A stretch of 31,947 nt of DNA from a virus, in IMG/VR virus record IMGVR_UViG_3300032293_000206, positions 1-31,947 of that record; one strand, given 5' to 3'. Shown here piece by piece: positions 18,764 through 25,833 of the stretch. Under the pieces are notes generated by a model. It did no database searches. It was given only the letters and a program-made list of their open reading frames with translations, and was not told where the DNA came from. Position numbers and translations under genes: made by a program. Numbering within the stretch: the stretch's first letter is position 1; each line of letters starts with the position of its first letter.

Positions 18764-18928
18764 CTATTTATTTTTTTCTAAAAATGCAAGTCCATAAAAC
18801 CAAATTACAACCATAACGACGCGAGCTAACCAATGCCAGGTTAAAGGATTAAAATCCAAGGTCACAAATACGATTAATAGGTAAGTGATAAACATTAGGA
18901 TAAGCGAGGCAATTGTTTCTTTTGTCAT
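18764..18928 (-). CDS. Small two-TM membrane protein between terminase and portal (54 aa)
   Basis: ATG at 18928 overlaps the large terminase TGA (ATGA); TAG at 18764-18766. Two hydrophobic segments lie at about residues 6-24 (ASLILMFITYLLIVFVTL) and 33-50 (VVMVVIWFYGLAFL), with a short polar turn DFNP and a Lys-rich end. It resembles no family I can name. The strict coupling supports expression. Possibly an extra holin-like or membrane-associated protein; function unknown. Confidence 0.62.
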   Translation of the reverse strand: MTKETIASLILMFITYLLIVFVTLDFNPLTWHWLARVVMVVIWFYGLAFLEKNK

Positions 18929-20094
18929 ATTGAGAATTTAAATTCTTGTTTCTTTTTTAACTCCATCATTGCCAAATATCTCAACGCGTCAATCGCGTGG
19001 TTATAATCGTCAATAGGACTATTTAGGCTTTTACCAGTCTTGTCTTTATCCCAGGTATAAGACCGCAATTCCTTTATTAGGTTTGTGCTTTCTTTGGTAA
19101 CTAATAGCTTATGTTCTTGCAAAATCTGAATGCCAAATTTAATCGAGTCGGCTCCTTTTAGGACTGGTTTAATGTTAAATCCTGAGCGGTAAATTTCCTC
19201 AATACTTTTTGGTTCGGCGGAATCTGCATAGATTTTGTCGATTTTATTTATTCCTAATCGGCTCATTTCTCCAATGATGTCAGAGTTTAGCATCCCTTGG
19301 CGGTAAATCTTTTCGTCAACAATTAAACAATCATCGTATTGATAAACTCCAACCAATGTCGTTGGGTCGTTAGTAAATCCAAAGTCCATGCCGTAACCAA
19401 TTATCTTGGCGTTTGCTGGCACCTGGTCGATTGATGACCAATTAGAGAAAATAACACCGTCTAAACTTCCAACCTGACCAAGGCCGTAAACCCTCCACCA
19501 ATTCTCCCAGTACTTAGATGTCTTAGCCTTTTCTTTTGCCTTCTCTATTTCCTTGACAATTGCAGCGTCCAAGGCTTCGTTGTCTTTATAGGTCAATATC
19601 ACAAAGTCCGAGTCTTCGTCTTTTATAAGCTCCGTATGTACCCAAAACTCTTGGGTTGGATTATAATCTAAATAAATAAAATCCCTTGTACGTATTGATA
19701 ATTGATTGTAGGACTCAAAGTCAATATTGTTGCACTCGTTTACGAATAAAACGTGTCTTCTTGCTCCTCTAAGTTTGTCGGGTTGGTCTGCCGAGAAAAA
19801 CTCTATAAATGAGCCGTTTAGAAACTTGTATTTTAGGTCTGACTTATTGAATTGAGCGTCTCGGTAATTGCCAGTCATAACCATTATGTTCAAAAAGTCT
19901 TTAACCGCGCCACGTTTTAAATGTGGGATTGATTCAGCCACAACCGAAATTTCGGTATAAGGAGTCTGCATTGCATGAGTAATGAGCAAAGGCAAAATCG
20001 AAAAGGTTTTGGACGATGAGGTGCCACCTTGTACAATCCTTACTCTTTTTCTCAGCTTTGAGATTTTAGCTTGCGCCGTTGTCTTTTGAAACAT
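18925..20094 (-). CDS. terL: Terminase large subunit
   Basis: 389 aa. The ATPase half has a Walker A variant GGTSSSKT (23-30), Walker B VLFVNE (ending E120) and LDYNP. The nuclease half has GMDFGFTNDPT (D237), YADSAEP (D291) and IDDYNHAIDALRY (D362/D363, D369). These are the motifs of PBSX-like terminases. It cuts and pumps DNA into the prohead through the portal. It overlaps the small subunit by 29 nt. No evidence here distinguishes cos from headful cutting, though the arbitrary-looking genome break inside a gene fits headful packaging. Confidence 0.93.
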   Translation of the reverse strand: MFQKTTAQAKISKLRKRVRIVQGGTSSSKTFSILPLLITHAMQTPYTEISVVAESIPHLKRGAVKDFLNIMVMTGNYRDAQFNKSDLKYKFLNGSFIEFFSADQPDKLRGARRHVLFVNECNNIDFESYNQLSIRTRDFIYLDYNPTQEFWVHTELIKDEDSDFVILTYKDNEALDAAIVKEIEKAKEKAKTSKYWENWWRVYGLGQVGSLDGVIFSNWSSIDQVPANAKIIGYGMDFGFTNDPTTLVGVYQYDDCLIVDEKIYRQGMLNSDIIGEMSRLGINKIDKIYADSAEPKSIEEIYRSGFNIKPVLKGADSIKFGIQILQEHKLLVTKESTNLIKELRSYTWDKDKTGKSLNSPIDDYNHAIDALRYLAMMELKKKQEFKFSI

Positions 20095-21883: not shown

Positions 21884-22513
21884 TTAAATTAATTTATCTA
21901 AATTTTTATCGTCCTTAATTGCCTGTAAAATAAACAATTTCCAAATCTTATTCTTTGTCTTGGCGCCAACTGTTGACTCTTCAACGTACCTGGTTGTTAA
22001 CCTCAATTCCTTACGAACGTCGCTTTCTATTTCTTGTACGTTAAACTCCCAAGGTTTTAAAATTCCTTTTTCTTGAAACTTGTTAAACCAGTATATCCCC
22101 CAGTCGGCAAGGTGCTTGCAATGTCCCGTTTCTTTGGCTTCCTGGTAATTGTCTCGAAACGTTTGCTTTCCAACCTCAATCCAATATGCAATCTCTTCGT
22201 TTGTTGGCTCCTTTTCTTTGTTGTTTAAAGCTTGCACCTCCTGGACAATTTGGCTTTGGTGGTGTGCATAGTATTGATTAATCCAAACGCTTACTGTCTT
22301 TTCGTTAACGTGGTAAAAATCGCCGTACTGGCCCCTCATTCCAGCATGGAGAATGTAATTAACTCGGTCCTCAGTCATCCAGCCATAAGAGCCAAATAAC
22401 TTGCTCAGGCATCCAAGCAATTCGTTTGCCTCTTCTTTTTTGTATTCCTTAAATTGTTTAAGTCCGCAGACAAACTCCATTTTTCGGAGGTGCGTTAAAA
22501 TTATCTCATCCAT
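21884..22513 (-). CDS. Hypothetical replication-associated protein (209 aa)
   Basis: Overlaps the replication initiator gene by 8 nt. Helix-rich with many charged and aromatic residues (YGWMTEDRVNYIL, VNEKTVSVWINQYYAHHQSQ, WGIYWFNKFQEKGI). No nucleotide-binding or nuclease motif visible. Its fixed place after a DUF4373 gene suggests a partner such as a helicase-loader-type factor, but nothing in the sequence proves it. Confidence 0.7.
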   Translation of the reverse strand: MDEIILTHLRKMEFVCGLKQFKEYKKEEANELLGCLSKLFGSYGWMTEDRVNYILHAGMRGQYGDFYHVNEKTVSVWINQYYAHHQSQIVQEVQALNNKEKEPTNEEIAYWIEVGKQTFRDNYQEAKETGHCKHLADWGIYWFNKFQEKGILKPWEFNVQEIESDVRKELRLTTRYVEESTVGAKTKNKIWKLFILQAIKDDKNLDKLI

Positions 22514-23258
22514 TTTTTAGTAATTTTTGTTTTTGTAAATCCTCGTAAAGTTCGTCAAATACGTTTTTGCTTTTGCTTTCTTTTTTTGGTACTGGGTTGC
22601 CTCTTTTAACCCAATTAAAAAAATGCTCTTTAGCAAGCTTTTCATTTTCTTTAAAATCAGCTTTCAAAATACATTCTTGCCTAAAGGTATTTAAATGGTC
22701 TTGGACTTCTTTAAAATCTGCCTTCCAAGTTATAGCTAATCCTTCAAGCCAAATCTTATTATTCCATAATTGACGAAAAATTGCATTATGTGAATCCTCA
22801 TTTATTTTACTTTCTTTTCCTTCATTTTCTTTTATTTCTTTTCCTTTCCTTTCCTTTAATTGCATTGCATCAGCATTGCCTTCGCTATGCGTTCGCATTG
22901 CGTTTGCATCATTGTTTTGATTCCAGCGTTTTTTTGCCGATTCCCTAGCCTTTTCGGAGCGCTCTTCTTTTAATTCCATACGTTTTAAAAGGCTTTCAGA
23001 CCAAAAACATTGCTGGTCAATTACAAACAAATCAAAGTCATTAATTAGCTTTTTAATAGTATCCTCTTGCGTTTGCAATGCAAATGCTATGCTTTTGTAA
23101 TGCGTTCGCATACGATAATCGCTTTCGTTTCTTAGCAGTTCTATTAAGGCCCAAAACAATCCGTAACCCTCCCATCCTAATTCCATGCGTAATTGCAAAA
23201 TTTTAGGGTCATCTTTCGCGTTTGAATCATGCGAAAAATAATAAGCTTCTTTCTTCAT
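22506..23258 (-). CDS. Replication initiator/replisome organiser, DUF4373 (Lin1244-like)
   Basis: 250 aa. The N-terminal winged-helix-like DUF4373 domain (residues 1-95) has AYYFSHDSNAKDDPKILQLR, GWEGYGLFWALIELLRNES and TIKKLINDFDLF. A low-complexity charged linker (KESAKKRWNQNN to about 155) follows, and a C-terminal helical domain with HNAIFRQLWNNKIW and FNWVKRG. Proteins with this layout replace DnaD/lambda O-type organisers in Bacteroidota phages. The gene contains origin-like repeats and follows a candidate terminator at 23269-23299, which may regulate it. Confidence 0.83.
   Translation of the reverse strand: MKKEAYYFSHDSNAKDDPKILQLRMELGWEGYGLFWALIELLRNESDYRMRTHYKSIAFALQTQEDTIKKLINDFDLFVIDQQCFWSESLLKRMELKEERSEKARESAKKRWNQNNDANAMRTHSEGNADAMQLKERKGKEIKENEGKESKINEDSHNAIFRQLWNNKIWLEGLAITWKADFKEVQDHLNTFRQECILKADFKENEKLAKEHFFNWVKRGNPVPKKESKSKNVFDELYEDLQKQKLLKNG
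22803..23111. other. Candidate replication origin: iteron-like repeats and purine tract inside the initiator gene
   Basis: Two clusters about 200 nt apart share the 12-mer ATGCGTTCGCAT (22887-22898 and 23100-23111), TTGCGTTTGCA (22898-22908 and 23067-23077) and GCTATGC (22884-22890 and 23086-23092). The 12-mer is itself a hyphenated palindrome (ATGCG/CGCAT). Next to the first cluster lies a strongly asymmetric tract of about 55 nt, almost all pyrimidine on plus (22807-22858). Iterons in the initiator gene followed by a purine-biased, easily melted tract is the layout of lambda ori in gene O. Confidence 0.5.
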
Positions 23259-23268
23259 ATTTGTAAAT

Positions 23269-23299
23269 AAAAAAACCCAACTGGTGGTAGACAGTCGGG
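23269..23299 (-). terminator. Rho-independent terminator/attenuator upstream of the replication initiator
   Basis: Stem CCCGACUG/CAGUUGGG (one G-U pair) at 23276-23283 and 23292-23299 with an 8-nt loop. Seven U (complement of 23269-23275) follow, then A and three more U. It ends 11 nt before the initiator ATG, so the initiator needs read-through. Confidence 0.75.
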
Positions 23300-23354
23300 T
23301 TCAGGTTAAATTTAACCTATGGAATTATTCTAGCTACCACCCTGGAATAATTCG
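23269..23354 (-). ncRNA. Candidate small structured RNA with own promoter and terminator (~86 nt)
   Basis: Three hairpins follow in minus-strand order. Hairpin 1 (23322-23353) has a 9-bp stem GAAUUAUUC/GAAUAAUUC with a 14-nt loop containing GGUGGUAG. Hairpin 2 (23303-23318) is the perfect palindrome AGGTTAAATTTAACCT. Hairpin 3 (23276-23299) is an 8-bp stem with loop UCUACCAC followed by U7. A promoter ends a few bases before hairpin 1, so the predicted transcript starts at about 23354. No start codon with a credible reading frame lies inside. Alternatively it is a structured leader/attenuator of the initiator gene. Confidence 0.55.
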
Positions 23355-23359
23355 ATACA

Positions 23360-23387
23360 CAAATATAAACCTTTTCGATTTAACCAA
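23360..23387 (-). promoter_or_regulatory. Promoter of the candidate small RNA
   Basis: TTG (23385-23387) and TATATTTG (23360-23367), spacer 17 nt, on the minus strand, overlapping the end of the small HTH gene. It starts TTGG and contains AAATCG in the spacer, like the XRE promoter. The expected start point coincides with the base of hairpin 1. Confidence 0.62.
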
Positions 23388-23529
23388 CTAGCGAGCGCTT
23401 CTTTAGTTGAAAATAAATACAACCGTAAGATAATCCCATTTCTTGGGCAATTACCTTTATCTGCTTTCGGTCTTGCCAAGCTTCAAAGATTAATTCTTTT
23501 TCGTATTCTGTTAAACTGCGTCCTCTCAT
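23380..23529 (-). CDS. Small helix-turn-helix protein (49 aa)
   Basis: ATG at 23529 overlaps the upstream stop as ATGA; TAA at 23380-23382. Residues 8-48 read as a homeodomain-like HTH: EYEKELIFEAWQDRKQI (helix 1), KVIAQEMGLS (helix 2), YGCIYFQLKKRSL (recognition helix). It is too small for anything but DNA binding. It ends within the sRNA promoter and could regulate it. Short length lowers certainty, but the coupling and HTH pattern support it. Confidence 0.7.
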   Translation of the reverse strand: MRGRSLTEYEKELIFEAWQDRKQIKVIAQEMGLSYGCIYFQLKKRSLVG

Positions 23530-24687: not shown

Positions 24688-24806
24688 AGTCTTTCGAATG
24701 TTTCGTTAAAAGGTAATTTCTCTTCGTTAAATGTGGAGGCGACACCTTTTGGCGCTAGGTCTCCAGGGCGTTGTATAAACTTGCCTAAATACAGATAGTT
24801 TCTCAT
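24669..24806 (-). CDS. Small hypothetical protein after Gp157 (45 aa)
   Basis: ATG at 24806 overlaps the Gp157 TGA (ATGA); TAA at 24669-24671. The sequence begins MRNYLYLGKFIQRPGDLAPK and continues FNEEKLPFNETFERLW. It reads as a normal acidic/hydrophobic mix. The position and overlap support it as real. Function unknown. Confidence 0.62.
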   Translation of the reverse strand: MRNYLYLGKFIQRPGDLAPKGVASTFNEEKLPFNETFERLWNLMR

Positions 24807-25285
24807 TTGATTTGTAGATTAAAGTTTTCGATTAGTCTTGCGCCAGTAATATTTTCGCCGCGTTTAATGGCTTCTTTGATTGCGACCTTGTCAGCGGTTA
24901 CCACGTTTTTAATATTTATAAACTGGCTAGGTAAAGCCTCCACAATGTCGACCTCGACAGACTCGCTACGACGCAATGAAAGCTTAAATAAAGGACTTTC
25001 TATCTTGTCGATTGTACTTACTAGCATGGCCTCCCTTACCGCGTCCTTAAGCCTTGTAATGGCTCGGTCCTTGCTTTCCTTCATTGCTTTTAATCGCTTT
25101 ATTTCTTGGTCGATTGCGTCGCTATCGCTTTGAATGTTTGCAATTACCTTGGCATAGTTGCCAGCCTTTGCCTGGAGTTGTTCTTGGTTAATTACCAGCA
25201 TTTGCTCTAGCTCAGGTGTAAGCTCGTCGGTTTCCAATAGAAAGGCTAACTCTTGAGCCTCTCTTGTTATTTCGTATAAGTTCAT
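24803..25285 (-). CDS. Siphovirus Gp157-like protein
   Basis: 160 aa: a long N-terminal coiled coil (YEITREAQELAFLLETDELT to about residue 95, with KAGNYAKVIANIQSDSDAID and KRLKAMKESKDRAITRLKDA). The conserved beta part follows: STIDKIESPLFKLSLRRSES, VEALPSQFINIK and ADKVAIKEAIKRGE with GARLIEN. This is the Gp157 family, found beside annealing proteins and SSBs in many phages. It is coupled to the ERF gene by ATGA. Confidence 0.88.
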   Translation of the reverse strand: MNLYEITREAQELAFLLETDELTPELEQMLVINQEQLQAKAGNYAKVIANIQSDSDAIDQEIKRLKAMKESKDRAITRLKDAVREAMLVSTIDKIESPLFKLSLRRSESVEVDIVEALPSQFINIKNVVTADKVAIKEAIKRGENITGARLIENFNLQIK

Positions 25286-25833
25286 ATTAATCCGTCTAAG
25301 GTGTCTTTTTGTTCTTGGTTTAATTCGTATTTACTCAAAGCCTCTTTGGCTTGCTTTTTTTGTGCATCCGTTCCGTTTAGATATCTAACAATGTAGGCGA
25401 ATTGCTCGTCTGTCGGTTTGGTCTTGGTAACTGCTGGAGCCTGGCGTACTGGTCGTGTTGCAGCCTCTCCGTCATCGTCGCTAATCGCTAGGTTTAGAAT
25501 GCTTGTAATTGCATATCTACGAGCGTAACTAATCGCCGAGCCTTGCGCTTGTGGGTCGTTTTGTCTAACTACCTGAAGCGTGTAAGTTGCCGAAATGTAC
25601 TCGCCAGTCTCGGCGTGTATTAGCATGGTCGTAAGGCCGTCTCCGTTTGGAAACTGGCTAAGGATTAAACCAGCCTTTTCTAGCGGTTCGCTGACCTCTG
25701 TAATGATGTGAGGCAAGCTGGCGTAATTGGACTTAAAAAATGGGTTTTTAGCGTCCTTGCTAATTTTCCCAACCATCGCATGGAACTTGGCTAAGCTTTG
25801 CGTTAGGTTTGTGATACTCTGTGATTTTTCCAT
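25282..25833 (-). CDS. erf: ERF-family single-strand annealing recombinase
   Basis: 183 aa. It has the ERF core: FFKSNYASLPHII (32-44), EPLEKAGLILSQFP and the diagnostic QAQGSAISYARRYAITSIL (95-113) followed by DDDGEAA. The C-terminal 55 residues are a linker plus helical domain. It anneals complementary strands during recombination-dependent replication and end repair. It pairs with Gp157 next to it and RusA later in the operon. Confidence 0.92.
   Translation of the reverse strand: MEKSQSITNLTQSLAKFHAMVGKISKDAKNPFFKSNYASLPHIITEVSEPLEKAGLILSQFPNGDGLTTMLIHAETGEYISATYTLQVVRQNDPQAQGSAISYARRYAITSILNLAISDDDGEAATRPVRQAPAVTKTKPTDEQFAYIVRYLNGTDAQKKQAKEALSKYELNQEQKDTLDGLI

Follow-up and report, generated by a model that had tools for sequence, protein, structure and literature searches.

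Antisense control of copy number in ColE1 (RNAI/RNAII) and R1 (CopA/CopT) proceeds through kissing hairpins whose partners come from opposite strands, their complementarity being automatic, and phi29 has a small packaging RNA in which two hairpin loops are complementary to each other. As described in one account, the CI RNA of phage P4 is a leader RNA that causes premature termination before the replication genes, and IsrK of the Salmonella prophage Gifsy-1 is a short RNA made from a phage promoter; it ends at a terminator, past which transcription can continue into the following mRNA, and it is able to act in trans on this read-through form (PMC4825925). Here, we describe a leader in a 31,947-nucleotide viral DNA (IMG/VR virus record IMGVR_UViG_3300032293_000206, analyzed at full length and called the window below) in which the loop of the 5′ hairpin is the exact complement of the loop of the predicted terminator. 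Many related phages keep this pairing with altered letters, which points to a real and apparently undescribed genetic control element.

The leader and its locus

The element lies on the minus strand, on which all of its features are numbered here. Its putative promoter is of the Bacteroidota type, with a −33 element TTGG at 23384–23387 and a −7 element TATATTTG at 23360–23367, as the initial annotation had read it (TTG-N17-TATATTTG); the −33 element overlaps the last codons of a 49-residue HTH-like ORF (23380–23529, same strand) that has no PHROG match and serves here as context only. The 9-bp hairpin claimed at the expected transcription start is likewise found at 23322–23353 (H1), extended by two inner pairs and closed by an 8-nt loop, and both folding and covariation support it. 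Within H1, the loop GGUGGUAG (kissing loop 1; GGTGGTAG as DNA) occupies 23334–23341. The 16-bp perfect palindrome, AGGTTAAATTTAACCT, could be located at 23303–23318, where folding gives a small hairpin (H2) that is kept in homologues. The candidate intrinsic terminator hairpin (H3, 23273–23302; folding and covariation) had been described as an 8-bp stem with U7: the U7 tract is there (23269–23275), and the stem is 11 bp long and closed by an 8-nt loop. This loop, CUACCACC (kissing loop 3; CTACCACC as DNA), lies at 23283–23290 and is the exact reverse complement of the H1 loop; in the window, the sites for CTACCACC and GGTGGTAG are the two loops only. Ten nucleotides past the U tract, at 23258, is the ATG of a gene (22506–23258, minus strand) whose product carries Lin1244_N at its N terminus (Pfam PF14297, E = 2e-13) and matches PHROG 2562, “replication initiation protein” (E = 5e-27). 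Both the loop-loop complementarity and the 10-nt distance to the ATG had escaped the first reading. The 88-nt RNA folds at −30.3 kcal/mol, compared with −16.4 ± 2.96 kcal/mol for dinucleotide shuffles (z = −4.7, 0/200).

Neither the window nor any of seven homologous loci matches a family of Rfam 15 at gathering thresholds (0 matches); at E values up to 10, the search returned chance-level matches far under the gathering scores, with c4 (RF01695) absent from them. A tRNA/tmRNA search of the sequence found none. In the literature on kissing terminators, HNH leader RNAs, and Flavobacterium phage sRNAs, we found no description of such an element, and the earlier statement that no RNA of this form has been described thus stands. 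The window phage appears to be of Flavobacterium type, with the leader placed just before the gene for the start of replication; the closest isolated relatives of its terminase (55% identity) infect Flavobacterium. Its early operon also holds adjacent genes for an ERF recombinase and a Mu Gam-like end-protection protein (25282–25833 and 24803–25285).

Homologues and covariation

A protein search with the downstream gene as query gave 78 viral loci, and nearly all close relatives with a complete gene 5′ end carry the same element directly upstream, with different loop sequences and with TATATTTG or a close form of it, H1, H2, H3, and the U tract retained. A DNA scan in which the loop centre was left free (pattern CCCGRCWGNCTNNNACCWGTTGGGNTTTTT) found 104 stretches of viral contigs, corresponding to 62 unique elements (family A). 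Most homologues show the TTGG-N-TATATTTG layout, nearly all homologues have TATATTTG, TATATTCG, or TATCTTTG at the same site, and the distance from U tract to start codon stays at about 5–15 nt across the family. The gene that follows is one of three N-terminal types, i.e., Lin1244_N (PHROG “replication initiation protein”), DUF6291-type, or DnaD-like helicase loader.

Because the MAFFT alignment of these elements (A2) separates 8-nt from 10-nt loop forms, loop-loop pairs were counted on the extracted loops. In 61 of the 61 distinct family A sequences in the A2 set, the seven-base loop cores pair perfectly by Watson-Crick rules; positions 3, 4, and 5 of the loop pair vary as GC/AT/CG, GC/AT, and TA/GC/AT, respectively, with one-sided changes in none of the 61. 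When loop 3 was reassigned at random, a mean of 15 sequences and a maximum of 29 matched (2000 trials). Across the same 61 sequences, two-sided changes are seen in 5 of 11 pairs of the H1 stem (99.0% of cells paired) and in 4 of 10 pairs of the H3 stem (96.2%), i.e., in 9 of 21 pairs together, with a covariation score of 0.282 compared with 0.124 for shuffled alignments and ≤0.06 when the partners are slid. The initial annotation had named compensatory changes in homologues as the observation whose absence would count against it; they are abundant, and the homologues strongly support its claim of a conserved structured RNA that extends from the promoter to the terminator. The conserved columns of A2 fall in the stems, in the terminator, and at the ends of the paired loops, which do not vary. 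At the H2 site, minimum free energy folding predicts a hairpin with 5 or more base pairs in 58/61 homologues, formed by different sequences. G-U pairs are frequent on the minus strand (e.g., a conserved H3 pair is G-U in 55/61), and since they make sense on this strand only, we take it to be the RNA strand.

Related leaders and their distribution

A search with a distant relative of the downstream gene (L073) led to a second scaffold, family B (L073, L074, and L203–L207), which has a different H1 and a long terminator, with the pairing kept in its loops (GGUCUCAC/GUGAGACC, CGUCUCAC/GUGAGACG, and CCUCUCAC/GUGAGAGG). Family B precedes replication genes with several exchanged N-terminal domain types. 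Such N termini are exchangeable more widely, with Lin1244_N, DUF6291-type, and DnaD-like forms among the replication genes of the window (22506–23258), L082, L129, L134, and L203–L207, and with DUF1376-like, HTH_36, and other N termini in family B; the C terminus remains related among them (e.g., ...NVFDELYEDLQKQKLLKNG). The family B loops resemble the family A type GUGAGAG/CUCUCAC with the loop order reversed.

A generic detector, which requires a TAnnTTTG promoter, two hairpins whose 7-nt loops are complementary, and a U-rich tail, found the same architecture, with other scaffolds and loops, before genes for NUMOD4-HNH endonucleases; this architecture also stands before a small number of other phage genes. 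Upstream of HNH genes, a version of this detector matched at 20 of 195 loci and in 8 of 1940 dinucleotide-shuffled upstream regions; a few of the 20 look like chance matches (e.g., L301 and L475). In 333 kb of phage contigs, there were 11 matches (10 distinct) with a following ORF, compared with 2 in 1 Mb of shuffled sequence in which no ORF was required, a rate that is not unbiased because the 333-kb set consists of the window, contigs already known to carry leaders, and Fpv5. In 800 kb from two Bacteroidota chromosomes, the detector gave 0 matches. Four of the HNH proteins were tested; they are 161–179 residues long, with NUMOD4 and HNH_3 and no RuvC match, and we therefore rejected an IscB/HEARO omega-RNA as an identity for the HNH-associated members.

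Several features recur among these leaders. The HNH leader of L434/L480 and the replication leader of L073 and L204–L207 have identical loops (GGUCUCAC/GUGAGACC) on different scaffolds. The terminators of L398, L414, L203, and L073 contain, on either side of the stem, an internal loop like the sarcin-ricin/bulged-G motif (AGUA/GAA), and in an HNH set (L035, L315, L426, and L446) the internal loop is GGAU/UGAA, where tandem G-A pairs may form. Upstream of the HNH genes of L283 and L316, there is a related leader of greater complexity, whose H1 could pair through its 3′ arm (UGCAAUA or UGCUAUG) with a complementary UAUUGCA or CAUAGCA inside the terminator. At position 2615 (plus strand) of L487, a kissing leader (CCATCAC/GTGATGG) precedes a gene that encodes TSPPYN, a motif characteristic of DNA methyltransferases; the 55-residue fragment has no Pfam match. 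A further long hairpin (GGTGGTAGGG...CCCTACCACC), unrelated to these and bearing a U8 tract, is seen in L081, L084, L089, L090, L092, L105, and L106 and stands outside the kissing class; it is near-identical in several contigs and is flanked by repeated ATGCATATGCATAAGCAT.

Among isolated phages, candidates are present in Flavobacterium phage 11b (near 33612–33724, ahead of the replication gene cluster, with loops CGGGCAGG/CCTGCCCG of 8 bp), in Polaribacter phage Danklef_1 (28564–28654, before a GIY-YIG gene), in Cellulophaga phage phi19:3 (23493–23613, before a YopX gene), and in Flavobacterium phage elemoA_7-9A (10304–10198, minus strand), where the family A covariance model gives a weak independent match at the same place (E = 0.13). 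A match in filifjonk9-1 and a minus-strand match in phi19:3 fold weakly, and we do not count them as established members. In Fpv5, whose terminase is a close isolate relative, no member was found, and a BLASTN search with the element against phage isolates gave no match. The firmly supported members are thus family A, family B, and the HNH set, each isolate candidate being a single sequence. The exact element pattern has 0 matches in 84,980 bacterial and archaeal genomes, and the covariance model 0 in 297 genomes drawn through L350 from a single phylum, the latter being weak evidence given strict filters and no positive control; because of these two results, the element appears to be confined to phage contigs.

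Proposed mechanism and comparison with known systems

Because the element ends 5–15 nt before a start codon, we regard it as a 5′ leader or attenuator rather than as a free-standing small RNA gene, and it has the layout of an attenuator, with a terminator between the promoter and the start codon of the predicted regulated gene. On the reading that we judge probable, it is the 5′ leader of the replication initiator gene, and loop-loop pairing controls termination into that gene. Transcription would start at about 23353–23356, and H1 would be made first, then H2, and then H3, whose loop could form 8 bp with the H1 loop. Kissing as H3 leaves RNA polymerase, together with the terminator itself, would set the share of transcription that ends here and releases an RNA of about 88 nt; the remainder would read through into the replication gene 10 nt downstream. 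Expression of the gene, whether from the leader promoter or from promoters further upstream, would require passage through the terminator. The released short RNA may also be active in trans, since any second copy of the leader carries matching loops. Kissing is proposed to set the efficiency of termination (in cis, in trans, or both) because the only strongly selected tertiary feature joins H1 to the terminator loop. The structure, its strand, the conserved and co-evolving pairing, the constant place ahead of a start codon, and the occurrence of this design before other phage genes are shown by the sequences; firing of the promoter, function of the terminator, tuning of termination by kissing, and the sign of that effect are inferred.

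Two observations count against this reading. No alternative antiterminator stem was found in the leader, so that secondary structure alone leaves an effect of kissing on termination unexplained, and the few, recurrently swapped loop types described below are not what a purely cis-acting device predicts. The geometry of family A also counts against it where pairing is in cis: by a rough A-form estimate (i.e., not a 3D model), about 31 stacked bp would span ∼85 Å, against ∼45 Å for the short linker (a few nucleotides plus the base of H2). This suggests that cis kissing would be strained with H1, H2, and H3 all formed, and that H2 opens, the stems bend, or the pairing takes place between two molecules. 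In other families, linkers of 13–19 nt would permit pairing in cis.

It is also possible, though we hold it to be distinctly less probable, that the terminated leader acts in trans, binding nascent leaders of the same type through its loops and altering their termination. Its targets would be the phage's own genome copies and co-infecting relatives, and the outcome would be loop-type-specific copy-number control or superinfection exclusion, similar to the role of P4 CI RNA in P4 immunity. The distribution of loops is what speaks for it. Among the 62 unique elements, the loop centres fall into just four of the 64 types that the pattern allows, each found before two to three kinds of gene, with a fifth type in divergent members, and loop type has changed repeatedly on the gene trees (at least 17 times among 53 Lin1244 genes, 10 times among 33 DUF6291-type genes, and 5 times among 13 DnaD-like genes). 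Between some close relatives, the ∼80-bp element is the main difference and appears exchanged whole: L177 and L192 are 99.3% identical downstream, 93% upstream, and 78.5% within the element, and L042 and L043 97.7%, 90.3%, and 73.4%, respectively. Calculated duplexes are worth −10 to −18 kcal/mol within a loop type and are mostly weaker than −10 kcal/mol between types, and contig L487 carries three leaders with three different loops. A small number of discrete loop types, swapped as a cassette of ∼80 bp, suggests self/non-self selection, and the pattern resembles selection for specificity types; plain recombination without such selection might also produce it. Moreover, both loops reside in one molecule, so that cis pairing is expected to compete, and some between-type pairings are calculated to be strong (A1 × C1, −15.3 kcal/mol; B1, B2, and B3 mutually, −9 to −12 kcal/mol). 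Taken to its full extent, which we would put forward only tentatively, this would amount to a phage-borne, RNA-only self/non-self system, in which loop-typed leader RNAs recognize identical leaders in trans, at either their terminator or their 5′ hairpin. Expression of the replication (and homing-endonuclease) genes would thereby be set by copy number, co-infecting phages that share the type would be excluded, and diversifying selection would drive the cassette swapping.

A free-standing, trans-acting small RNA that targets mRNAs of the host or the phage is improbable; on this reading, upstream promoters would serve the next gene, and its adjoining start codon would be incidental. The promoter is matched to a terminator, and the fold is compact and stable, as such a gene would have it; yet the spacing to the start codon is held constant across scaffolds and genes, and the loops are complementary to each other, change together, and find no other complementary site in the window. 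Of the small RNA gene originally proposed, the structured RNA has held up, and the description as a free-standing unit fits less well, given that the terminator abuts the next start codon in the homologues inspected. We consider it very unlikely that the locus is an ordinary terminator accompanied by DNA palindromes that serve as operators (e.g., for the small HTH protein), with RNA structure being incidental: at the DNA level, the 16-nt palindrome forms a perfect dyad as well, and GGTTAAAT recurs in the promoter spacer, but the occurrence of GGTTAAAT in the window is not above chance (38/100 shuffles), H2 is retained as a hairpin with different sequences, and the two-sided changes and many G-U pairs point to RNA rather than DNA. 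A ligand-sensing riboswitch, to which the leader position before a gene and the overlapping terminator would be suited, is hardly credible and was rejected, as alignment A2 has no conserved unpaired ligand-binding core besides the pairing partners, the architecture is the sole feature common to the different scaffolds, and there is no Rfam match.

What our preferred reading of a leader with a kissing terminator adds is a covariation-supported RNA architecture, a 5′ hairpin predicted to kiss the terminator loop, which is in no RNA family library searched and which is found repeatedly in Bacteroidota phages, upstream of genes for replication initiators and homing endonucleases. Small constructs could address whether loop-loop pairing can determine how efficiently an intrinsic terminator works, and whether interchangeable RNA loop types allow phages to distinguish their own leaders from those of their relatives; the loop types may also be usable as parts for RNA regulators.

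With the ColE1 and R1 antisense systems, the leader shares 7–8-nt loops, kissing recognition, replication control (predicted here), and diverging specificity types; in contrast to those systems, its two loops belong to one transcript and must co-evolve. As in the phi29 packaging RNA, there are two mutually complementary hairpin loops, but the leader adjoins a replication gene and has no link to packaging, and we rejected a phi29-type packaging RNA since the window encodes an ordinary Terminase_3 large subunit (18925–20094). The order of promoter, short RNA, terminator, and predicted regulated frame, which is that of IsrK, is seen here in the sequence layout and is constant in homologues, whereas IsrK acts on translation via alternative long helices, with no kissing to a terminator described in the excerpted account (PMC4825925). 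The leader has no covariance-model match to RF01695, even at E ≤ 10, and is not assigned to the P4 CI/c4 RNAs: it has no seqA/seqB/seqC layout and no Rfam match, it is found in phage contigs rather than in the bacterial genomes tested, and the pairing partner is the loop of a terminator hairpin within one unit of ∼88 nt directly before the ATG. Like P4 CI and the c4 antisense RNA of P1 and P7, it is encoded in the leader of a phage operon, whether for replication or for an antirepressor; complementary sequences lie in the same leader, and the action, predicted in the present case, is at premature transcription termination (for P4, as summarized in PMC4825925). Filed as a member of neither group, the leader is closest in logic to P4 CI RNA and Gifsy-1 IsrK.
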